Shown here piece after piece: positions 30,897 through 60,934 of a stretch of 64,000 nt of DNA. The position numbers and the translations under genes are program-made. Below the pieces are notes generated by a model. It was not told the DNA's origin, searched no databases, and was given only the letters and a program-made list of their open reading frames with translations. This DNA is from a virus, in the IMG/VR virus record IMGVR_UViG_3300023179_000009, positions 394,814 to 458,813 of that record, one strand, 5' to 3'. How positions within the stretch are numbered: position 1 is the stretch's first letter; the number at the start of each line of letters is the position of its first letter.

Positions 30897-31403
<507 letters not shown>

Positions 31404-39573: not shown

Positions 39574-40095
39574 ATGTTAAATGGGAAATACGAATACTCA
39601 TCGGTCCACATAGAAGTTCCTTGTGATTTATCAAAAAAAATCATCAACTGGGGGATAAAAAATATTCAAGATAAAGACCTTCATTATTCTAAAAAAAAAG
39701 AAGTTAATTTTGGAAGAGAAGATGAAATTCACGTGACAATTTTATATGGGATACACTCTGACTGCCATAAAAAAACAACAAATATAATAAAAGATTACGG
39801 ACAGGTTGACTGTTGTTTGGGAGAAATTCAAATATTTAAAGACCCCGAAGGTTACGATGTGGTTGTTATAGATGTTTTAAGTGAAGATTTATTTAAATTA
39901 AATGAGTTGATTGTTAAAAACATTAAACACACCAACAAATATAAAACATACAAACCACACGTTACAATAGCCTATGTTAAAAAAAATAGAAATTGGGACA
40001 AACTAAACAAAGATTTTTTTAAAGATATTAAATTTACTTCAAATCACGCAGTTTTTTCATCTAAAAATGGATTGAAATATGGATTTTTCCTCTAA
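39574..40095 (+). CDS. 2H phosphoesterase (LigT/Acb1-like fold)
   Basis: A 173-residue protein of typical 2H length. Both H-x-T motifs are present: H53-V-T in EIHVTILYGIH and H129-V-T in KPHVTIAYVKK, 76 residues apart. These enzymes hydrolyse 2',5'- or 3',5'-phosphodiester links in cyclic or linear oligonucleotides or tRNA ends. The T4 57B protein (Acb1) is a 2H enzyme that destroys CBASS cyclic oligonucleotide signals; whether this one does so, or repairs RNA, is unknown. Its end overlaps a convergent gene by 39 bases. Confidence 0.78.
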   Translation: MLNGKYEYSSVHIEVPCDLSKKIINWGIKNIQDKDLHYSKKKEVNFGREDEIHVTILYGIHSDCHKKTTNIIKDYGQVDCCLGEIQIFKDPEGYDVVVIDVLSEDLFKLNELIVKNIKHTNKYKTYKPHVTIAYVKKNRNWDKLNKDFFKDIKFTSNHAVFSSKNGLKYGFFL

Positions 40096-40574: not shown

Positions 40575-43106
40575 ATGTGGTGGGATTTTTTTAAAGTATT
40601 CACATATGCCTTTACTGAAGATCCTTTGTCTGAAAAGAACAAAAATGTGCTTACAGGTGCAGGTGTTTCTCAGCTTGATGCAATACCTGATTTGAGATCG
40701 GGAAATGAAGGATCGATAGGCGGTGGGACATCGATTAGACTAAGAGACACAAATGATTTCGTTGACCTCTCCACTGTAACAAATAGGATTCATCGATACA
40801 AAGAGTACGAAAGACTCAGGAATATGCCAGAAATTGAGATGGCTATGACTGTGTTTGCAGATGAGACCTGTCTCTCCGGAGATACAAGAGTTTCTACTCC
40901 ACAAGGCATGAGAACATTGAAAGATTTGGCAGAAAACGAGAAAGAGAGATTCCTTGTTTATTGTTATGATTTTAAAAAACAAGACTACACATTAAGTTGG
41001 GCACACAGTGCCAGAAAAACAAAAACAGCCAAAACTATAAAAATCATATTTGATAATGGGGATCATGTCGTATGCACACCAGACCACAGAATTCTAAATG
41101 CTGAGGCCGAATGGGTTTTGGCCGGAAGTTTAAAAACAGGCGATGAGTTGATGCCATTTTATAGAATTGAAGCAAATCCCGATTTGTCGAACAGCAAAGT
41201 AAATCAATTTCCTAGAATCTATTCAACTATTCATGGCTGGGTACACGAAAGACAATTTATTGATCATTGGAGAACTGGTAAGATACCAGAGGAGTTGCAA
41301 ACCCTAAACAAATATTGCCGAATGATAGCGGGTGGTTTAAATATTCGACAAATAAAAAAAATTACACAAAATCAATTTAAGACTGTGCGTGATAGGTTGG
41401 CGAAACATGGTTTTTCAAACAAAGAACTAAAATGGCTCGGTACAAAATCAAAAACAAGACGGGTAGTCTCGGTATTTGATTATAAAGAAATGGATGTATA
41501 TGACCTATCGGTTGACGAGCATGAAAACTTTGCAACAGATTGGGGCATAGTTCACAATTGTCAAAAAGACGACTCTGGTAGAGCATTTCAAATACACACA
41601 AAAAACAGCGATGCAAAAGAAGAACTTGAATTTTTATTTTTTCACAAAAAAATGTTGAATTTTGACCAAAAAAGAATTTGGAATTTAGCAAAATTACTTT
41701 TTATTTATGGAGACTTTTTTTATGAGGTTATTATAAACCCAGAGAATCCTTCCGAGGGCATTTATAATCTCATACCACTTCCTGCCGATTCGATGTATAG
41801 GTTGGAAACCACCAAAGGAAAACTATTAGAATTTCAACAATCAAAAGAAGGCCCCGATTATCAAAGTTTGGCAAACGTTGATATAACTCAGGCGACAGAT
41901 GCGGACTTGCAACAATCTACAGCCATTCGATTTGCTCCCGAACAAATTATACACATTCGAATTGGGGATGATAGAAAAACTTTTTATCCTTATGGCGTTT
42001 CTTTAATGGAAGCAGCACGTGGTCCAGCACATCAATTAAGATTGATGGAAGATGCCATGGTTGTTTACAGACTGTCAAGATCGCCAGAGCGAAGAGTTTT
42101 TTACATAGATGTCCAACAATTGCCACCATACAAGGCCGAAGCTTTCATAGAAAGAATGAAAGATCAATTCAAGAAAAAGAAAGTACCCAGCACCGGTCGA
42201 GCGCCTGGGGCCTCGTCTGTTGAGGAGAGATGGCAAACTCCTGCTGTCGATGAAGATTTTTGGATTCCGATTCGCCCAAATGCAAACACTAGGGTAGAAA
42301 CGCTTCCTGGGGCAAGCAATCTAGGAGAAATAGATGATGCTCTTTATTTTAGAAACAAGTTATTCACAGCATTAAATTTTCCAAGGAATTATTTTAACAA
42401 CGAAGATGTCAACAGCACCCGAATAGCCTTGTCTGCTCAAGATGTAAAGTTTGCTAGAATGATTGAAAGATTGCAAAGTCATATCGAAGATGCTTTGTGG
42501 GAAGTCTGCAATCGTCATCTTAAATTACAAGGGTATCCTGAGGAGTCTTATGATGATCTTGTTGTTAAGATGACTCCGCCCTCGGATTGGCGTGAACTCA
42601 CAAGAGCGGAAGTGGTTACAAATCGTTTGAACAATGCTTCAAACTTAAAGAGTGCTATGTTGCTTAGTGATTATGATATACTAACAAAATGGCTTAAATA
42701 TAGCGAAGAAGAAGCCAAAGAAATGATAGCAAGATTGAAAATTCAAAAACTTGATGATCTTAAGTTGCAAATTGTTGCACAAAATCCTACATTATTAGGA
42801 GTTGGATTGCCAAATCCAAACGAGCCAGAAATAGGAACAGATCCCGGTGGGCCAAACCCAATGTTGGCACCAGATGCTGGTCAACAAATGGCACCAGATG
42901 CTGGTCAACAAATACCACCAGATGCTGGTCAACCGGCTTTAGGAATGAAAAAATTTATGAATGCTGATCAACAGGTTCCAAAATCTGGTAGTGGGGTGGC
43001 CATACCTGATGCCTCTGAGGAAGATATTCAAAAATACAATTTGGATATTAAAGATTTTGAAAAAGAAATGGATGAAGAAGAAGTTGACATGAGTGAAAAT
43101 TTATGA
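40575..43106 (+). CDS. 20: Portal protein, gp20-like, with embedded intein
   Basis: The 843-residue reading frame contains a 230-residue intein (entry below); the spliced product is 613 residues (T4 gp20: 524). The N-part up to residue 98 is the portal wing, starting MWWDFFKVFTYAFTEDP. After the intein come LLFIYGDFFYEVIINPENP, then APEQIIHIRIGDDRKTFYPYG, and FIERMKDQFKKKKVPSTGRA plus NYFNNEDVNSTRIALSAQD, portal signatures of T4-like phages. The C-terminus has PDAGQQ repeats. It forms the dodecamer through which DNA enters. ATGA overlap with the next gene. Confidence 0.92.
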   Translation: MWWDFFKVFTYAFTEDPLSEKNKNVLTGAGVSQLDAIPDLRSGNEGSIGGGTSIRLRDTNDFVDLSTVTNRIHRYKEYERLRNMPEIEMAMTVFADETCLSGDTRVSTPQGMRTLKDLAENEKERFLVYCYDFKKQDYTLSWAHSARKTKTAKTIKIIFDNGDHVVCTPDHRILNAEAEWVLAGSLKTGDELMPFYRIEANPDLSNSKVNQFPRIYSTIHGWVHERQFIDHWRTGKIPEELQTLNKYCRMIAGGLNIRQIKKITQNQFKTVRDRLAKHGFSNKELKWLGTKSKTRRVVSVFDYKEMDVYDLSVDEHENFATDWGIVHNCQKDDSGRAFQIHTKNSDAKEELEFLFFHKKMLNFDQKRIWNLAKLLFIYGDFFYEVIINPENPSEGIYNLIPLPADSMYRLETTKGKLLEFQQSKEGPDYQSLANVDITQATDADLQQSTAIRFAPEQIIHIRIGDDRKTFYPYGVSLMEAARGPAHQLRLMEDAMVVYRLSRSPERRVFYIDVQQLPPYKAEAFIERMKDQFKKKKVPSTGRAPGASSVEERWQTPAVDEDFWIPIRPNANTRVETLPGASNLGEIDDALYFRNKLFTALNFPRNYFNNEDVNSTRIALSAQDVKFARMIERLQSHIEDALWEVCNRHLKLQGYPEESYDDLVVKMTPPSDWRELTRAEVVTNRLNNASNLKSAMLLSDYDILTKWLKYSEEEAKEMIARLKIQKLDDLKLQIVAQNPTLLGVGLPNPNEPEIGTDPGGPNPMLAPDAGQQMAPDAGQQIPPDAGQPALGMKKFMNADQQVPKSGSGVAIPDASEEDIQKYNLDIKDFEKEMDEEEVDMSENL
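40869..41558 (+). mobile_element. Intein in the portal gene (residues C99-N328)
   Basis: Splice junctions are visible: extein FADET, then C99-LSGDTRVSTPQG as block A, a CTPDHRILNAE block-B-like motif with TPDH, a late block F (VYDLSVDEHENFA) and terminal G-I-V-H-N328 followed by extein C329 (CQKDDSGR). The 230 residues are longer than a minimal intein (about 140), and the middle 90 residues include a helix-turn-helix (IRQIKKITQNQFKTVRDRLAKHGF is split over 256-279) but no clear DOD or HNH nuclease, so it looks like a degenerate homing domain. Cysteine as the nucleophile at both junctions is a class 1 feature. Confidence 0.88.
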
Positions 43107-43336
43107 AATCAATAATTACAGAAGCTCCAAAAAGAGCGTTAAAGAATCGTGAAGAAATATCCAAAGCAACCAAGTGTAGTTGCTATAGCTGTTTCTCTGT
43201 ATTCGATTCCAAAGAAATAAAAAATTGGACAGATCAAAACAAGACTGCCATTTGCCCAAATTGTTCAGCAGATACTGTTTTGCCCGAAGAATTAAACATG
43301 GATACTTTAAAACAGATTAAGAATTACTGGTTTTAA
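43103..43336 (+). CDS. Small zinc-ribbon protein
   Basis: A 77-residue protein whose ATG overlaps the portal stop. The C-Y-S-C and C-P-N-C pairs (ATKCSCYSCFSVFD and TAICPNCSADTVLP) form a zinc ribbon, resembling small bacterial cytoplasmic proteins of that type. Function unknown. Confidence 0.65.
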   Translation: MKSIITEAPKRALKNREEISKATKCSCYSCFSVFDSKEIKNWTDQNKTAICPNCSADTVLPEELNMDTLKQIKNYWF

Positions 43337-43680
43337 GCGTCTCCGCCAAAACCACTATCTGCTTCTGAGGGTTTAACTTCTTCTTTTTCTTCAGGGTGTT
43401 CTGGTTTTTTTCCCATTCTCAAAAAATGATTTTTATCAATTTTTCTAAGCATCACCACAATTTCATTATCTCCACGTTGTGCAAGTGTATGAAAAAAATC
43501 TAGAGTTTCTTCAGGGTACTTTTTTATAGCAACGTCAAATAAGTCTTTTTTTACTTTGTCGTGATCATCTGCATAATCTGCGTCTTGATCATTAAATTTA
43601 TACTTATCCACAAAATTTTCTTCGTCATTCATATTTTCTTTTAATCGCTTATTATTAAGCCAATCTGTGAAGTTGTACAT
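43333..43680 (-). CDS. Reverse-strand protein with capsid-targeting-like leader
   Basis: The 115-residue protein starts MYNFTDWLNNKRLKEN with ATG at 43680 after AAAGAGGAAAAA; an in-frame TTG further up is unlikely. F4, W7, L8 fit the leader and L13-K14-E15 the prohead protease site. Acidic, with VKKDLFDVAIKKYPEETLDF and a GFGGDA end. A reverse TATAAATA box is found 65 bases upstream. It is the only reverse gene within the head module. Confidence 0.6.
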   Translation of the reverse strand: MYNFTDWLNNKRLKENMNDEENFVDKYKFNDQDADYADDHDKVKKDLFDVAIKKYPEETLDFFHTLAQRGDNEIVVMLRKIDKNHFLRMGKKPEHPEEKEEVKPSEADSGFGGDA

Positions 43681-45690: not shown

Positions 45691-46386
45691 ATGGATCAGA
45701 TGTTACTCATCGATTGCTGTGCTAGCTCTGGATTCGAACTACAACTTAGTGAGTCTACTATGAAAGGTGGACTCACTAAATTTCGTGGCAAGTTCCAAGA
45801 AGCTGAAGCAGTAAACAAAAACAAAAGAATGTACCCTTTTGATGTGCTAAGTGAAAACATTGGCCGTCTTCAAGAGGCAATAGATGATCGTAGACTTGTT
45901 GGAGAGCTAGATCACCCAACAGACTCTATTATACATTTTGCAAATACATCTCACGTAGTTACCAAACTATGGTGGGAAGGAAACGTTCTCATGGGCGAGG
46001 GCGAAATCCTAAACACACCGTCTGGTATGATTTTGAAAAGTCTTATTGATGGCGGCGTTAAAGTTGGTATCAGTTCAAGGGGAGTTGGTAATGGAAAGGT
46101 GAACGAAGATGGCATTCTTGTCATCGGTGAGAGTTATAAACTTATCACATTCGACGCCGTTGCAGACCCCAGCACTTTTGCTGCATTCCAAGAAAAAGTC
46201 GTTGCTAAAGGTGAGAGTTTTAATCCTCAAGTTAAAGAGCAAATTCGTTCTACACAACAAAAATCAAAAATTGCTGTGAAAAATGAAAGCTCCAGCATAC
46301 ATAATGTTAACAAAGAGGTATTAATCGCTTACTTAAGCGGCTTTGTAAAATCTCAAACACAAGAAATTAAGTCGAGGTTAGGCTAA
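45691..46386 (+). CDS. 21: Prohead maturation protease, gp21-like
   Basis: The 231-residue protein (T4 gp21: 212) has the S77 signatures: FRGKFQEAEAVNKNKRMYPF, then VGELDHPTDSII with the catalytic histidine and KVGISSRGVGNG with the catalytic serine, then LITFDAVADPSTFAAF. It assembles inside the prohead and removes scaffold, then matures the capsid. It precedes the scaffold with TAATG overlap. In T4 its specificity is [LI]-x-E, relevant to the leaders found elsewhere in this window. Confidence 0.93.
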   Translation: MDQMLLIDCCASSGFELQLSESTMKGGLTKFRGKFQEAEAVNKNKRMYPFDVLSENIGRLQEAIDDRRLVGELDHPTDSIIHFANTSHVVTKLWWEGNVLMGEGEILNTPSGMILKSLIDGGVKVGISSRGVGNGKVNEDGILVIGESYKLITFDAVADPSTFAAFQEKVVAKGESFNPQVKEQIRSTQQKSKIAVKNESSSIHNVNKEVLIAYLSGFVKSQTQEIKSRLG

Positions 46387-47282
46387 TGGATAAAATTACT
46401 GAAGCATTGAAGAGCATCCTTCCTGCTGAGCATGTCAATGAGGTTGCCAAAGCCGTCGAAGAAATGATGGCTGAAAACGTCGCTGCACTCGAAGCGGAGT
46501 TCCAATCCAAATTGGACGAGGCTTACGAGCAACTTACTGAAGAACGTAAGGCTGATGAAGTCATCGCTGAAAATGGCTATCAACAAGCCTATGACATGAT
46601 TCAGTCTTTGATGGCTCGTTTGGATGAACAACGTGAAGAATTCGAAACAGCGTTAGAAGAAGGCTTTGAAGAAGCCTATAGCGAACTACAAAAAGAAAAA
46701 GGTCGCAACGAAACTCTTGAAGTAGAAATATACGAAGAAGCAGATAAGAAACTTCAAGAAATGAAGAGCATGATGGTTGACAAACTTGATCAATTCTTGT
46801 CGCTACAAGAACAAGAAATGTACGAGTCAGCCAAACGTGATGTTCTCAGCGATCCAAGCATACTTGAGCAAAGAGTTGCAGTTGAGAAGATGGCTGAAGT
46901 CCTTGCTGATTATATCGGTGACGACACCATCAACAATGCAACATCGGCCAAACTTGAAGAAATGCAAAAACAAGTTGAAGCCCTTAAAGGTCAAATGAGA
47001 ATTATTGAAGCCAAAAACGTTCGTCTTGCTACTCAAAACAACAAGTTGACCGAGCAAGTCCGTGAGGCTCACGAAGTGATCACCGAGGCTGCAAAAGCCG
47101 AGAAAACGAATAGATTGAATAAGAAAGAGAATGCAAGTGGGCGTGGACAAAGAGTTGTGAACGAGCAAATTATTAGTGAATATGCCGCTCCAACTGAAAA
47201 ATCGGCAAAAGAGGCTGACCTGCGTGAGGGTCATGATCCTTTAGCCGATCTTCTGGTTCTTTCAGGTCTTGAACAAACCTGA
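46386..47282 (+). CDS. 22: Prohead scaffold protein, gp22-like
   Basis: The 298-residue acidic helical protein (T4 gp22: 269) is composed of long heptad stretches (AALEAEFQSKLDEAYEQL, then EEFETALEEGFEEAYSEL). It ends with a basic linker and ADLLVLSGLEQT. It starts inside the protease stop. It would form the core around which the capsid grows and then be cleaved. Assigned from composition and gene order. Confidence 0.85.
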   Translation: MDKITEALKSILPAEHVNEVAKAVEEMMAENVAALEAEFQSKLDEAYEQLTEERKADEVIAENGYQQAYDMIQSLMARLDEQREEFETALEEGFEEAYSELQKEKGRNETLEVEIYEEADKKLQEMKSMMVDKLDQFLSLQEQEMYESAKRDVLSDPSILEQRVAVEKMAEVLADYIGDDTINNATSAKLEEMQKQVEALKGQMRIIEAKNVRLATQNNKLTEQVREAHEVITEAAKAEKTNRLNKKENASGRGQRVVNEQIISEYAAPTEKSAKEADLREGHDPLADLLVLSGLEQT

Positions 47283-47328: not shown

Positions 47329-48774
47329 ATGAACGCACGTTTCCTCAACGAAGCACGTGAGATCGAGACCAGATGGTCCAAGCCTCTTCGTAACGGCAAG
47401 TCGATGCTTGATGGCATCACCGACCGCTACGAGAGAGCTTCTGCCGCTGTTCTTCTCGAAAATCAACGTCTTATGAACGAAGCTATGACCGACAGTGGTG
47501 ACATTTCGCAATTCAAAAGAATTTCGATACCACTCGTCCGTCGTATCTATCCACAATTGATCGCCAACAAAATCGTTTCGGTCCAACCATTACTTGGCCC
47601 AACCGGTTTGGTCTACTATCTCCGTTTTAGATACTCTTCAAACAAGGGTGCTATGCGTGGTGCTGACCTCAATAGCGGCTTTCCAAGCGACGACGCAACA
47701 TCGTTACAACAACTTGCTAGCGGTGATGGCAATTTAGACATCTTCTACACTCATCAATTTGTTCAAAATGAAACAAGTTCGACTGATGCTGGCGGAGATA
47801 CAACTTCAGTGTATGCTCCACTTGAGCACACTCCAGTTCTTGCCGGAACCGTGACTGGCACCGTTTATGACGGCTCAGTTGCTGTTCAAACATTTGTTGT
47901 TGCCGAGAATGGTACTTTCACCTTCACCGACATCGGAACCCCATCTGCTAAAGCAACTGGCGGCACCGTTGATCTTGTGACTGGCGAAATGACCCTTACT
48001 TGGAACAACGATCCAGGTGCTAACAATGTTGTTGTTTCATATGAATACAACATGGAATGCAATCAAGATCTGCCTGAAGTCAACCTCGTTGTTGAATCAG
48101 AAGAAATTGCTGCTAAGACTCGTAAGTTGAAGGCTGCTTGGAGCTATGAAGCCCAACAAGATCTTCGCTCACAGCATAACCTCGACGCCGAAGCCGAACT
48201 CACCGCAGTTCTCGCTCAGGAAATAAATTTGGAGATAGATAGAGAGGTGCTAACTGACCTTCGTAATAACGCTGGTACAGTGGCTGTGTGGGATTTCAAT
48301 ACTGCTCTCGGTGACACCATCAAAGAGAAGTATGAATCACTCTATGTGAAGGTTGTTGAAGTCAGCAACGTTGTGCATCGTAAGACACTTCGTGGTGGCT
48401 GCAACTGGCTCGTGACTTCACCTGAAGTTGCATCAGTTTTCGAAACTGCTACAGCCGGTTTTGCACCAGCCCCAAGTGAGACTTTCACAAGTTCGCTCGG
48501 CATCCAATATGTTGGCACAATCAACAATCGTTGGAGACTGTATAAGGATCCACTGTTCCCACAAGGTCAAATCCTCATGGGTTACAAGGGCGACAGTTAC
48601 ATGGACAGCGGATACTTCTACTGCCCATACGTGCCACTCACCCAAACCCCAGTCGTACTCGACCCAGAGTCGTTTTGTCCTCGCAAAGGAATATTAACAA
48701 GATATGGGAAAAAGTTGCTTAGAGAGGGAGCAAAGTTCTACGCCCGCATGAGCATCGCAAATTTCATCGTGTAG
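47329..48774 (+). CDS. 23: Major capsid protein, gp23-like
   Basis: The 481-residue protein follows an AGAGGGA Shine-Dalgarno. Features: LIANKIVSVQPLLGPTGLVY, YLRFRYSSNKGAMRGAD, LTDLRNNAGTVAVWDF, the RGGCNWLVTSPEVASVFE strand, and LFPQGQILMGYKGDSYMDSG. L42-L43-E44 near the N-terminus is a candidate gp21 cut site. Residues about 165-242 (HTPVLAGTVTGTVYDG to VVVSYEYN) appear to be an inserted beta domain. The C/G-rich codons show high expression. A strong terminator follows. Confidence 0.94.
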   Translation: MNARFLNEAREIETRWSKPLRNGKSMLDGITDRYERASAAVLLENQRLMNEAMTDSGDISQFKRISIPLVRRIYPQLIANKIVSVQPLLGPTGLVYYLRFRYSSNKGAMRGADLNSGFPSDDATSLQQLASGDGNLDIFYTHQFVQNETSSTDAGGDTTSVYAPLEHTPVLAGTVTGTVYDGSVAVQTFVVAENGTFTFTDIGTPSAKATGGTVDLVTGEMTLTWNNDPGANNVVVSYEYNMECNQDLPEVNLVVESEEIAAKTRKLKAAWSYEAQQDLRSQHNLDAEAELTAVLAQEINLEIDREVLTDLRNNAGTVAVWDFNTALGDTIKEKYESLYVKVVEVSNVVHRKTLRGGCNWLVTSPEVASVFETATAGFAPAPSETFTSSLGIQYVGTINNRWRLYKDPLFPQGQILMGYKGDSYMDSGYFYCPYVPLTQTPVVLDPESFCPRKGILTRYGKKLLREGAKFYARMSIANFIV

Positions 48775-52706: not shown

Positions 52707-52719
52707 TATAAATACTATT
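52707..52719 (+). promoter_or_regulatory. T4-type late promoter TATAAATACTATT
   Basis: A complete match to the T4 late promoter (TATAAATACTATT), ending 14 bases before the ATG at 52734 and drives the three-gene internal-protein operon. Confidence 0.8.
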
Positions 52720-52733
52720 AAATTGAGGGATTT

Positions 52734-53123
52734 ATGAAAACATTTCAAGAGTGGTTGAACGAAAATCGATACCGTGATACTTATTCGCCAGCTTATGGTG
52801 GCGGCAACATAGAGCAACTGGCCAAATCAAGAACCAGTGGCCTTTCCTACGGCGGAAGATCGTTGGCCAATTGGAGTGCTGTTAATGCGGATCGGAATAA
52901 AATAAAAAAAGAAATGAGTGTGGACCAACTATCACGTGATGAGAATGGCGTTCCTACATTGAGTACGGACACAGTGAGAAGGATACAGGATCTTTTGGAT
53001 CGTAAAGGTCTCACCATTTCAAAAGAGTCACCAAATAGATTTGCTGTATTAGACGATGAGGGCAACGTAGTGTTTCATAGCAACGGTTGGTCTGATATTG
53101 AAAAAACCCTCCAGCAGATTTGA
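52734..53123 (+). CDS. Candidate internal head protein 1 of an operon (capsid-targeting-like leader)
   Basis: The 129-residue protein starts MKTFQEWLNENRYRD, strikingly like the T4 capsid-targeting sequence (MKTYQEFIAE), with L8-N9-E10 as a protease site. The body has a glycine-rich segment (AYGGGNIEQLAKSRTSGL) and VQDLLDRKGL-type helix near the end. No enzyme signature. First gene after the late promoter. Confidence 0.62.
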   Translation: MKTFQEWLNENRYRDTYSPAYGGGNIEQLAKSRTSGLSYGGRSLANWSAVNADRNKIKKEMSVDQLSRDENGVPTLSTDTVRRIQDLLDRKGLTISKESPNRFAVLDDEGNVVFHSNGWSDIEKTLQQI

Positions 53124-53132
53124 TATGATTTT

Positions 53133-53966
53133 ATGAAAACATTCCAGCGATTTTTTCTAACTGAGGAAAATTTTGAGCAATTTCAAAATTATCTTAGAAA
53201 TACCGGCATGACATTTGAGCAATTGCTGCAAAAATTACGTTCTGGTCGTCCTGATGGTGTGGGTGGCAATGCTAAATTTTATCGAATACCCGGAACAGAG
53301 TTTGGCGTTCGGGAAGTGAGTTCTTCTTGGGGCGTGCGTGACACATCGCATCCAAAACTCGTGGCTGCTCATGATCCTTTTGATGGGGAAAACTTTGGCC
53401 AACCTGTGGCTCATTATGGAAACAATGTACAGGTATTACGACTTCAGCATGGTTCACCTGCTGGCAAGCCGTATGGAATTAATAAAAAAGATGCTCAAGC
53501 CGATGATCGTGCGGTTCAGGCTTATAGGCAGAGAATTTTTGATGCTGCAAATCTTTCAGACGGTGCCTATGAGCGTTTGATGATGCAAATTATAAAATTA
53601 AATGAAAAAGGATACAAAGTAGATTCAAGCAAATCAGGTAATTTACTGATCGATCCACGCTCTGATAGATTTAATATTGTGGATTTAAATCCATTACAAG
53701 ATGAAAAACACAATAACAACGGCGGAGATATTATACTCATGCTTGTTGATAATTTTTTCTTTGAAAAGCATGAGTTTTATAATGACCCGGAGATAGCGAA
53801 GGCTGGTCAAGAAATCATTAAAAAGGTCGAAAGAGCATGCAATAAAACAGGACTGTCTTTGGGCGATAACGGCAGTGCTGATTATTCACGTGAATTGACC
53901 AGTGGAAATTATAAACCTTACGTAGCACCTCCTGATTCTGGAATCAAAGTAAACGATGTTTGGTGA
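53133..53966 (+). CDS. Candidate internal head protein 2, kinase-like fold
   Basis: The 277-residue protein begins MKTFQRFFLTEENF (leader; L9-T10-E11). Residues 45-190 follow a protein-kinase-like order: a strand KFYRIPGTEFGVREV, then FGQPVAHYGNNVQVLRLQHG as a hinge-like segment, helices, then a catalytic-loop-like stretch with G169-N170 in KSGNLLIDPRS and D184 in RFNIVDLNP. The canonical HRD is absent, as in divergent kinases. If packaged and ejected it could modify host proteins, as T4 Alt does by another chemistry. Inference, moderate to low. Confidence 0.5.
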   Translation: MKTFQRFFLTEENFEQFQNYLRNTGMTFEQLLQKLRSGRPDGVGGNAKFYRIPGTEFGVREVSSSWGVRDTSHPKLVAAHDPFDGENFGQPVAHYGNNVQVLRLQHGSPAGKPYGINKKDAQADDRAVQAYRQRIFDAANLSDGAYERLMMQIIKLNEKGYKVDSSKSGNLLIDPRSDRFNIVDLNPLQDEKHNNNGGDIILMLVDNFFFEKHEFYNDPEIAKAGQEIIKKVERACNKTGLSLGDNGSADYSRELTSGNYKPYVAPPDSGIKVNDVW

Positions 53967-53972
53967 TAAACA

Positions 53973-55400
53973 ATGAAAACATTCTTAAATTGGCTCAAAA
54001 ACAAAATAAACGAAAATCAAGATCCTAAAACTATTCGTGATTTAGGGATCGATGGTGTTCCTGATGGTGTGAAAAAACAAATTGATATTTTTTCAAGCGA
54101 TGATTGGCTGCGTGCCATCGATGCTGGGCGAGAATATCAAATGATAAAATTTGCCGATGTTAAGTTTGATTCAATTGAAAAATATTATGCAAACTTAGAT
54201 CAATCAATAAATACTATTCGTGATATAAAAACTTTAAAAATTGGTCAAAAAATTGCAGATTACGCAATCAGAAAAACTCCGTATTGGGTGGTTACGGGCG
54301 TTGATGAGACTAGAAACGTTGTTTACCTTGACCCAATTAAGCCCAATCCATATGTTCCAGATGCTTCTGGAAAGATGGTTGGTGCTGGGGGGCATGAATT
54401 TACAGCACATGATTTTGATGTGATGAGCGGCGAATATGAATCAAGAAAAATTGATCAATTACTCGATATAATCAATTCAAAAAACTATCATGATCCAAGA
54501 GATGTCGCATATATCCTTTTGGGCACAGTGCCGGTGCAATCTGGCCCTAATGGATCTCAAGGGGGTTGGTATAACGTATTTGATAGGCACAATAGGGGCA
54601 GTTTGAAATCAATGACTATTGAGCAAATTATACAAAAAGATGCACAAACTTTAAAAAAACTTGGATTTTCGGTGCCTGCTAAATCTTTAAATGGAACAAT
54701 TAAACCAGATGCTTGGAATGCATATGTTGAGGGAGGATATGTTCCTCGTGGTCAAGAGCAAGAATCGCAACTAGAAGAAGAAGATTTCCAAGATGCTCAA
54801 ACTATGGCAAAAATTATTTTAACTCACAGCCAACCTCAAATTCGTGAAAGAAATGCCGATCTGTTAATAAAAATGTATTCCGATAACCCAGACGGGTTTG
54901 AACCTTTGATCCGGGATGTGTCGATGAAACTTGCTGCCCAACCACAATTCGGTAAAGATTTTGATCGCAATTACAATGTTAAAGGAAAATTTATTTGGCT
55001 TGCTTGGCACAACAAATGGCAAGATATTTTGGATGCTTTCCAAGACAGCCCAGAACCTGACAACAGACGTTATGTTTCACATGGATACAAAGAATCAGGT
55101 AATGTTAATGGAATTATTGAAATGATTAAAAAAGAAACTAGTTCTGAGGCTGTGGGATCGATGTTGAACGATTTATGGAGCATGAAGTTTGAAGGAAAAA
55201 TTCCTTATTTCACTTCGGCTGAAGAGAAGGTTTCTATTTATAAAAAACTTTTTGAAGAAGATGCTGAGTCTAAGGATGTGGTAATATTCTTTTGTTCAAA
55301 CAAAGACAAAATTAAAAAAGTTATAGATAATCACGAATACCACAAAAAAGATGGTGGTATCATTTTTGATAGATTTAGCAAGTTGTGTGAGTTGGTTTAA
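53973..55400 (+). CDS. Candidate internal head protein 3
   Basis: The 475-residue protein starts MKTFLNWLKNKINENQD (leader; I12-N13-E14). The first half contains IADYAIRKTPYWVVTGVDE and alpha/beta segments; the second half looks like repeated helices (LTHSQPQIRERNADLLIKMY, then GIIEMIKKETSSEAVG), maybe HEAT-like. It ends the late operon. No enzymatic family recognised. Confidence 0.55.
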   Translation: MKTFLNWLKNKINENQDPKTIRDLGIDGVPDGVKKQIDIFSSDDWLRAIDAGREYQMIKFADVKFDSIEKYYANLDQSINTIRDIKTLKIGQKIADYAIRKTPYWVVTGVDETRNVVYLDPIKPNPYVPDASGKMVGAGGHEFTAHDFDVMSGEYESRKIDQLLDIINSKNYHDPRDVAYILLGTVPVQSGPNGSQGGWYNVFDRHNRGSLKSMTIEQIIQKDAQTLKKLGFSVPAKSLNGTIKPDAWNAYVEGGYVPRGQEQESQLEEEDFQDAQTMAKIILTHSQPQIRERNADLLIKMYSDNPDGFEPLIRDVSMKLAAQPQFGKDFDRNYNVKGKFIWLAWHNKWQDILDAFQDSPEPDNRRYVSHGYKESGNVNGIIEMIKKETSSEAVGSMLNDLWSMKFEGKIPYFTSAEEKVSIYKKLFEEDAESKDVVIFFCSNKDKIKKVIDNHEYHKKDGGIIFDRFSKLCELV

Positions 55401-57714: not shown

Positions 57715-58167
57715 ATGCTTAACGAAAAAGACAAAAGTTGGTTTTGGAATGTGTTTGGCGGAGCCATGATGAGTGTGGTTTTTGTGTTGTTTTTATCACA
57801 CATCAATAACATCAACAATAATATTGATAAAAGTTTTCTTTCTTTAAAGACAGAAATAAAAGAACTATCTGTGGTGTTGGATTCTCAAAAAGAAAGAATT
57901 GTTGGTTTAGAGAAAAATCGTGAAATTGATAAAGAAAAAGATTGTTCATTAGAAAACAATCTTAAAAATTTAGAAAATTTGTTAAATGAAAATAAACAAA
58001 AATTGTTAGTTTGTGAAACTCAAATATTATCAATGAAAGAAGAAATCAAAATAATATCTGAGGCCAACAAAGATTATTTAAAACAGATACAGACTTTAAA
58101 AGAAAAACTAGCCGCCGATGAGGCAACAAAAAAAGCAAAACAAGAATCTACAAACCTAAATCCTTGA
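57715..58167 (+). CDS. Membrane-anchored coiled-coil protein
   Basis: The 150-residue protein has a short basic start, one transmembrane segment (VFGGAMMSVVFVLFLSHI), then a long coiled coil (KTEIKELSVVLDSQKERI, then NLKNLENLLNENKQKLL). This is the layout of an i-spanin or inner-membrane rod, but no partner o-spanin was found. Its 3' end overlaps a reverse gene by 20 bases. Confidence 0.55.
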   Translation: MLNEKDKSWFWNVFGGAMMSVVFVLFLSHINNINNNIDKSFLSLKTEIKELSVVLDSQKERIVGLEKNREIDKEKDCSLENNLKNLENLLNENKQKLLVCETQILSMKEEIKIISEANKDYLKQIQTLKEKLAADEATKKAKQESTNLNP

Positions 58168-58414
58168 GTTTGTCCTTCTTCTTTTTCTTGATTTTCTTTT
58201 TCTTGTGTTTCTTTGATGCTTTTTTTATCTCGGGATTTAACAAATCTGGGTGAACATCACTGTGCGTTGTTGCAAATGCATTTAAATGTCCAGCAACACT
58301 CGGAGCAAAAGCAAGAGGAGGAAGTTGTCCGCTTCCGTAGAGTGGCGGATATATTCCCAGTGCTGTGCGTTTGCCACGTTCATTTAGCCATTGTGTGAAT
58401 GATTGCAAAGCCAT
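58148..58414 (-). CDS. Lysine-tailed protein with capsid-targeting-like leader
   Basis: The 88-residue protein starts MALQSFTQWLNERGKRTA, with L10-N11-E12 and F6, W9 like the other leaders. A proline-rich middle (IYPPLYGSGQLPPLAFAP) is followed by a poly-lysine tail (KKHKKKKIKKKKKDKLKDLG) that could bind DNA inside the head. Translationally coupled to the next upstream gene (TAATG). Confidence 0.62.
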   Translation of the reverse strand: MALQSFTQWLNERGKRTALGIYPPLYGSGQLPPLAFAPSVAGHLNAFATTHSDVHPDLLNPEIKKASKKHKKKKIKKKKKDKLKDLGL

Positions 58415-60386: not shown

Positions 60387-60403
60387 TAGAATTTATACGC
60401 CTC

Positions 60404-60447
60404 CCGCCAGAAAACCCAGTCCCTTTAGGGGCTGGGATGAATGGCGG
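60404..60447 (+). repeat. Hairpin A: solo IS605/TnpB-type right end
   Basis: Inner stem CCCAGTCCC/GGGGCTGGG (60415-60436, loop TTTA) within an outer CCGCCA/TGGCGG stem. It strongly resembles the hairpin at the end of the tnpB gene at 62152, with one base pair changed on both sides. It probably is a leftover transposon end or a guide-RNA-like element. Confidence 0.6.
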
Positions 60448-60496
60448 TAAAATCACACACGCACTATATATGATGTCGTTCAAGAAAGGTGAAATT

Positions 60497-60934
60497 ATGA
60501 AAAGTTTTAATGAGTGGATAAAAGAAAGATTAAAATACAATCAATTTTTTAGCGAGGAAAACCTCTCTCGCACCTACGATAGAAAAGCCTTCGTTAGCCT
60601 TCCTTGGGATTGGAATTCAATGATTAGAGCCAAAGTCATCCAGCCCCTGTTCTATTATGCAAAAGAAAATTATGTAGACGGAAAACCCGAGGTGATGGAT
60701 GATAATTCGGCAAGCGTAATAACTCTTCCCAATCTTAAGTCCATAGATAATAGTGAACTTTCTGCAAAAAACATACACACAGGAAAACCGCCCAACCTCA
60801 ATTCTTTCATGCTTTTGCTTCGCAATCCAGAATCTTGGTACGACCAGAAAATAGACCAGATTTACGACGGCATTAAAATGATTGGAAAAAAGCCAGAGGA
60901 TTTTGGCGGTAGAGACATAAGAACGCTAGATTGA
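60497..60934 (+). CDS. Candidate internal head protein with capsid-targeting-like leader
   Basis: I chose ATG 60497 after AAAGGTGA; the long upstream extension would run through hairpin A. The 145-residue protein starts MKSFNEWIKERLKYNQFF, with I8-K9-E10. The rest includes DDNSASVITLPNLKSIDNSE and a GRDIRTLD end. No family recognised. It sits between two transposon-type hairpins. Confidence 0.6.
   Translation: MKSFNEWIKERLKYNQFFSEENLSRTYDRKAFVSLPWDWNSMIRAKVIQPLFYYAKENYVDGKPEVMDDNSASVITLPNLKSIDNSELSAKNIHTGKPPNLNSFMLLLRNPESWYDQKIDQIYDGIKMIGKKPEDFGGRDIRTLD

Follow-up and report, generated by a model that had tools for sequence, protein, structure and literature searches.

Three tandem genes downstream of a gp23-type capsid gene, each encoding a protein that begins MKTF, raise the question of whether their products are carried in the virion and delivered with the DNA. 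The window analysed here is a stretch of 64,000 nucleotides, positions 394814-458813 in a virus record of 458,813 bases. As the first-pass annotation had pointed out, each of the three genes carries an [LI]xE site, and a complete 13-mer, TATAAATACTATT, lies directly before them. The three ORFs are on the same strand, separated by spacers of 9 and 6 nt; their sites are LNE at residues 8-10 of gene 1, LTE at 9-11 of gene 2 and INE at 12-14 of gene 3, and the 13-mer has no other exact copy in the record. The features of the operon are as follows.

52707-52719 (+): late-promoter-like sequence TATAAATACTATT, exact
52725-52729 (+): GAGGG, likely ribosome-binding site of gene 1
52734-53123 (+): gene 1, 129 aa, leader-bearing, fast-evolving
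52734-52763 (+): gene 1 leader MKTFQEWLNE, predicted cut after E10 (compare T4 ipII/ipIII, MKTYQEFIAE)
53133-53966 (+): gene 2, 277 aa, with leader; product probably of kinase fold
53133-53165 (+): gene 2 leader MKTFQRFFLTE, predicted cut after E11
53622-53684 (+): catalytic-loop/DFG-like stretch of gene 2, D164..N170-LLID..D184-LN, from sequence
53973-55400 (+): gene 3, 475 aa, with leader; strongly conserved
53973-54014 (+): gene 3 leader MKTFLNWLKNKINE, predicted cut after E14 (LNE in L004)

The phage is a giant T4-like (jumbo) phage, and the window encodes a T4-type head module. Genes for the gp21-type protease and gp23 were located 4-7 kb upstream of the operon, which lies 4 kb downstream of gp23, beyond probable mobile genes (e.g., one for a TnsA-like endonuclease). 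The intein apparent in the portal gene was marked by CLSGDTRVSTPQG ... VHNC, and an extremely repetitive Asp/Glu-rich ORF with a long run of aspartate codons was noted at 30897-31403 (-). Other features of the window and the genome to which the text refers are listed here.

36504: terminase-like ORF, by inspection
39574-40095 (+): Acb1-like 2H phosphoesterase, leaderless in the window (Pfam PF23474, E 1e-8)
40575-43106: portal-like ORF, apparently intein-bearing, by inspection
43333-43680 (-): 115-aa leader-bearing protein (MYNFTDWLNNKRLKE) in the portal-protease interval, the T4 gp67/68 position
45691-46386 (+): gp21-type prohead protease, presumed leader peptidase (phrog_207, E 6.3e-49)
46386-47282 (+): probable gp22-type scaffold, assigned by position only (gene order between gp21 and gp23)
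47329-48774 (+): gp23-type major capsid protein (Pfam Gp23, E 8.3e-86)
58148-58414 (-): 88-aa leader-like protein MALQSFTQWLNE, with an orthologue in L004
60497-60934 (+): leader-bearing gene, MKSFNEWIKE, with upstream DNA and leader in common with an Arr-like gene
G000:34702-35229 (-), elsewhere in the same genome: gp55-like sigma, 66% identical to a relative's protein

The leaders of these proteins closely resembled those of the T4 internal proteins. The fetched T4 ipII and ipIII sequences both begin MKTYQEFIAE, which matches the gene 1 leader in register (positions 4 and 7 are aromatic, and the cleavage motif occupies 8-10), and the fetched ipI sequence begins MKTFKEF and carries ITE at 17-19. 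MKTFQEWL, MKTFQRFF and MKTFLNWL all have an aromatic residue at positions 4 and 7 and a hydrophobic one at position 8, as does T4 MKTYQEFI. In the T4 leader, targeting depends mainly on residues 4 and 7 and processing on residues 8 and 10, and gp21 cleaves after L/I-x-E (PMC9026906). Searches of the genome for DNA encoding MK[TS][FY]xx[WFY] gave 10 matches compared with 1 for the reversed control, and 8 of the 10 opened ORFs of at least 89 aa; with leader genes counted by this one spelling, about five further leader ORFs were present in the genome beyond the operon. Among 80 gp23-relative loci together with the own-genome loci, 49 leader ORFs in 27 body clusters were chosen independently of the cleavage motif. 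The motif [LI]xE occurred within residues 7-16 in 16 of these 27 clusters versus 126 of 643 other ORFs (20%; Fisher p=1.2e-5), and versus 15 of 84 when the comparison was with other ORFs starting MK (p=7e-5), with sharp peaks at residues 8 and 10. The sampled members of the remaining 11 clusters, including the Arr-like protein (MEE), had no [LI]xE in this interval.

Past the leader, the three proteins were mostly orphans. No significant match to genes 1-3 was found in Pfam, PHROGs, NCBIfam or PDB sequence searches, the PHROG for 'internal head protein' matching gene 1 weakly and over the leader only (E 0.11). A relationship of gene 3 to threonyl-tRNA synthetase (E 0.55) was rejected as chance. 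Genes 2 and 3 had no match among 50,697 phage records, and in the other 46 relatives' records searched, gene 2 was without a match in 45 and gene 3 in 44. Genes 1-3 are known from no more than two or three related contigs. Ratios of dN/dS against the nearest relative were 0.32, 0.11 and 0.07 for genes 1, 2 and 3, respectively, and the three genes are therefore maintained proteins under purifying selection.

The same locus was compared in related phages, as had been proposed as a check. All three genes were kept in L007, with identities of 80, 86 and 97%, while L004 kept gene 1 (36%) and gene 3 (91%), had no gene 2 and carried as the first member of the operon a different leader-bearing cargo of 357 aa that begins MKTFREWI. 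Several residues of the gene 3 leader were changed in L004, yet the site persisted, INE becoming LNE, and [LI]xE was retained in the operon orthologues.

The same leader was also found on unrelated bodies, among them an ArdC anti-restriction protein in L013 (Pfam E 2.4e-7), an Arr-like ADP-ribosyltransferase encoded in the same genome at G000:27384(-) (E 5e-9), an FMN reductase in L067 (E 3.5e-13) and a PolyA_pol/HD enzyme in this genome, L006 and L008 (E 3.7e-30). Domains of the ArdC, ART and kinase classes have been proposed for polyvalent proteins that are injected (PMC5512222). The PolyA_pol/HD enzyme, with leader MKSFNEWLVE at G000:211494(-), L006 20676(-) and L008 20594(-), is possibly a virion-packaged RNA-modifying enzyme. 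The Arr-like gene and the gene at 60497 were 94% identical over 137 bp of upstream DNA plus the leader and different in their bodies, and in L013 the same cassette preceded a third body. Copies of this repeat, fused through the leader to different genes, were at G000:27362-27488(-) and at 60392-60518 of the window, the latter in the neighbourhood of an IS605-type TnpB and a LAGLIDADG gene; a GC-rich hairpin part of it recurred without the leader at G000:86187, 190964 and 90852. Four tandem leader genes (MKTFYEWL etc.) with closely similar start regions were noted downstream of gp23 in L083 (11271-13567).

Further evidence came from the Acb1-like protein, for which PF23474 scored above cut-off and two HxT motifs (HVTILYG and HVTIAYV) were present. 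This protein was leaderless in the window and in eight relatives and leader-extended in L021, L037, L120, L121, L123, L126, L128 and L129. The extensions were MKFRNWLLE, MKTWQQFLQE, MKTWNKFLDE, MKTWTQFLDE and MQRFRKFLE, and in every one xxE was immediately followed by the residue that aligns with the native start; [LI]xE fitted four of the five, the fifth being FLE. The predicted cleavage would restore the native N-terminus, a boundary that a removable targeting tag predicts and for which we are aware of no other simple reason. Recorded sites of the gene were L021 647-1195, L037 14614-15150, L120, L121, L123 and L126-L129.

Given the match to the T4 internal protein leader, the [LI]xE statistics, the turnover of cargo, the duplicated leader DNA and the Acb1 comparison, the operon is very probably a T4-style capsid-targeted, injected cargo module. 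The same observations uphold most of the first-pass description of a dedicated virion cargo module, of which the word 'dedicated' goes too far, since other genes with the leader lie scattered elsewhere in the genome. An alternative is that, like T4 gp67/gp68, leader proteins are parts of the prohead core or scaffold that help to assemble the head and set its size, and are not injected effectors. This would suit the small leader-bearing protein at the gp67/68 position, which starts MKTFxxY...LKE in relatives and was present at 18 loci in one family, but genes 1-3 occur in only a few close relatives, L004 has no gene 2, and the leader is also borne by bodies that do not belong to assembly proteins (ArdC, ART, Acb1-like and reductase), so that for the operon we regard this explanation as unlikely. 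At L033-L060, a conserved leader-bearing gene of about 120 aa lies between portal and protease, on the minus strand and some 3.8 kb ahead of gp23; TATATA(G)GTATGC recurs upstream of it and may be a promoter type of that group.

Less likely still is that MKTFxxW is an ordinary amphipathic N-terminus or an expression signal (e.g., for translation enhancement) with no role at the capsid. Although the DNA shared by some pairs of genes covers not only the leader but also the ribosome-binding site and the sequence upstream, the aromatic residues at 4 and 7 and [LI]xE survive amino-acid changes, the extension of the Acb1-like protein ends exactly at the native start with three leader types, and the leader is nearly identical to one proven in T4.

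The nature of gene 2, in which a kinase-like order of motifs had been proposed, was less clear-cut. The structure model of its product was of low confidence (mean pLDDT 57.6, pTM 0.49), its order of strands and helices resembling that of a kinase. All 50 PDB matches listed were kinases, with a best E of 5e-3 and TM-scores of at most about 0.4; PRPK and NleH2 were matched with probability 0.92-0.95, and near the top of the viral structure matches most named ones were also kinases. The stretch GNLLIDPRSDRFNIVDLN, with strands predicted at 171-174 and 179-182, resembles a catalytic-loop to DFG segment (GNLLID...VDLN). Against these points, all structural kinase neighbours were at E>=2.5e-3 and none at E<=0.001, and sequence searches of Pfam, PHROGs, NCBIfam and PDB linked gene 2 to no kinase family. 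The motifs were likewise non-canonical, R60 replacing the beta-3 lysine, D164 and N170 being spaced by six residues rather than five, and DLN standing for DFG, which makes gene 2 at most an atypical or pseudo-kinase. The proposed motif order was borne out only in part. On balance, a kinase fold is somewhat favoured for the gene 2 product and kinase activity is less likely than the fold; that the protein has some other fold, with kinase matches arising from a poor model, is quite possible and would be compatible with the cargo reading. The gene 3 model (pLDDT 40) was useless. No resemblance of the three proteins to an ordinary replication or tail protein was seen.

The description of the upstream 13-mer as a perfect late promoter stood in part. 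The element TATAAATA begins 27 nt 5' of the ATG at 52734, and the spacing of TATAAATACTATT to gene 1 suits a T4-type late promoter. At an equal distance from its ATG the nearest relative has TCTAAATATTAAT, the L007 gene 1 orthologue has TCTAAATA at the corresponding place, and in L004 TATAAATA begins 12 nt before the ATG of the different first gene. A gp55-like sigma gene was found in the genome only with a relative's protein as query, PHROG profiles giving no gp55 match there; the relative's protein itself matches phrog_234, and a stop counted inside the gp55-like match was the gene's terminal stop. On the other side, TATAAATACTATT was not enriched genome-wide, with 5 matches at <=1 mismatch versus 9 for the reversed control, and was rejected as a genome-wide promoter, while TATAAATA was absent before gp23 and without clear enrichment upstream of genes. 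Within the window, TATAAATACTATT at <=2 mismatches gave 14 matches versus 5.9 expected. The ATAAATA core showed a mild excess before genes, with a count of 16 against a mean of 8.8 for permutations of the same composition (rank 1 of 21). With a gp55-type sigma, the right spacing and TATAAATA in L004, a late promoter before the operon is plausible, and late expression is likely.

From the sequences we infer packaging, cleavage, injection, late timing and activities as follows. Expressed late, each protein would be made with a capsid-targeting N-terminal leader of 10-14 residues (positions 4 and 7 aromatic, position 8 hydrophobic, [LI]xE following) that binds the prohead core; the gp21-type protease would cut after E during head maturation, and the mature proteins would remain in the head beside the DNA, to enter the bacterium at infection and act before any phage gene is expressed. 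The three genes most likely encode proteins ready to take over the host, with a kinase-like enzyme possibly in the middle position: the gene 1 product is small and fast-evolving, as an inhibitor would be expected to be, that of gene 2 is probably an enzyme with a kinase fold that would act by modifying defence or host proteins, and that of gene 3 is large and conserved.

Such a system is known in principle, and the cargo is new and mostly orphan. The T4 Alt ADP-ribosyltransferase is a head-packaged, injected enzyme, with a counterpart in the leader-bearing ART encoded elsewhere in this genome, although the latter is of the Arr family and not Alt; no homology to Alt was found in genes 1-3. Likeness to T4 IPI, IPII and IPIII, injected proteins by which GmrSD restriction enzymes are blocked (PMC12373910, PMC9026906), extends to the 10-residue leader pattern, the [LI]xE site, the gp21-type protease and a set of variable genes with only the leader in common. 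In contrast with those proteins, the cargos here include much larger ones (277 and 475 aa) in a jumbo genome, show no sequence similarity past the leader and have cut sites up to residue 14 (17-19 for ITE of ipI). Polyvalent proteins with ArdC-N, ART and kinase domains (PMC5512222) are comparable as injected anti-defence enzyme classes, the ArdC of L013 being leader-bearing, but there the domains form one giant multidomain chain whereas here separate proteins each have their own leader. The ejection proteins of phiKZ and SPN3US are also giant-phage head cargo, cut after glutamate by a gp21-related protease (PMC9026906), and differ from the present case, in which the leader is short and T4-type and the capsid lineage gp23-type.

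The value added by this locus is comparative evidence for the leader as a portable tag in gp23-type jumbo phages. Knowledge of what jumbo phages deliver into the cell in addition to their DNA is, to our knowledge, sparse. Tentatively, and with some doubt, we propose a freely transferable capsid-export tag used across a broad gp23-type jumbo lineage, with a cut that restores the native N-terminus. Acquisition of the leader would then be enough to turn a new enzyme into an injected one, and in this operon the tag would deliver an atypical kinase before phage gene expression. The pairs of Acb1-like proteins with and without the leader suggest that some anti-CBASS proteins may be pre-loaded in the virion. 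This genome offers about eight candidates for injected proteins, including the Arr-like ADP-ribosyltransferase, to which relatives add ArdC and Acb1-like anti-defence proteins, and, should the leader prove to be a valid tag, sequence alone would suffice to list the proteins injected by hundreds of uncultured gp23-type phages.
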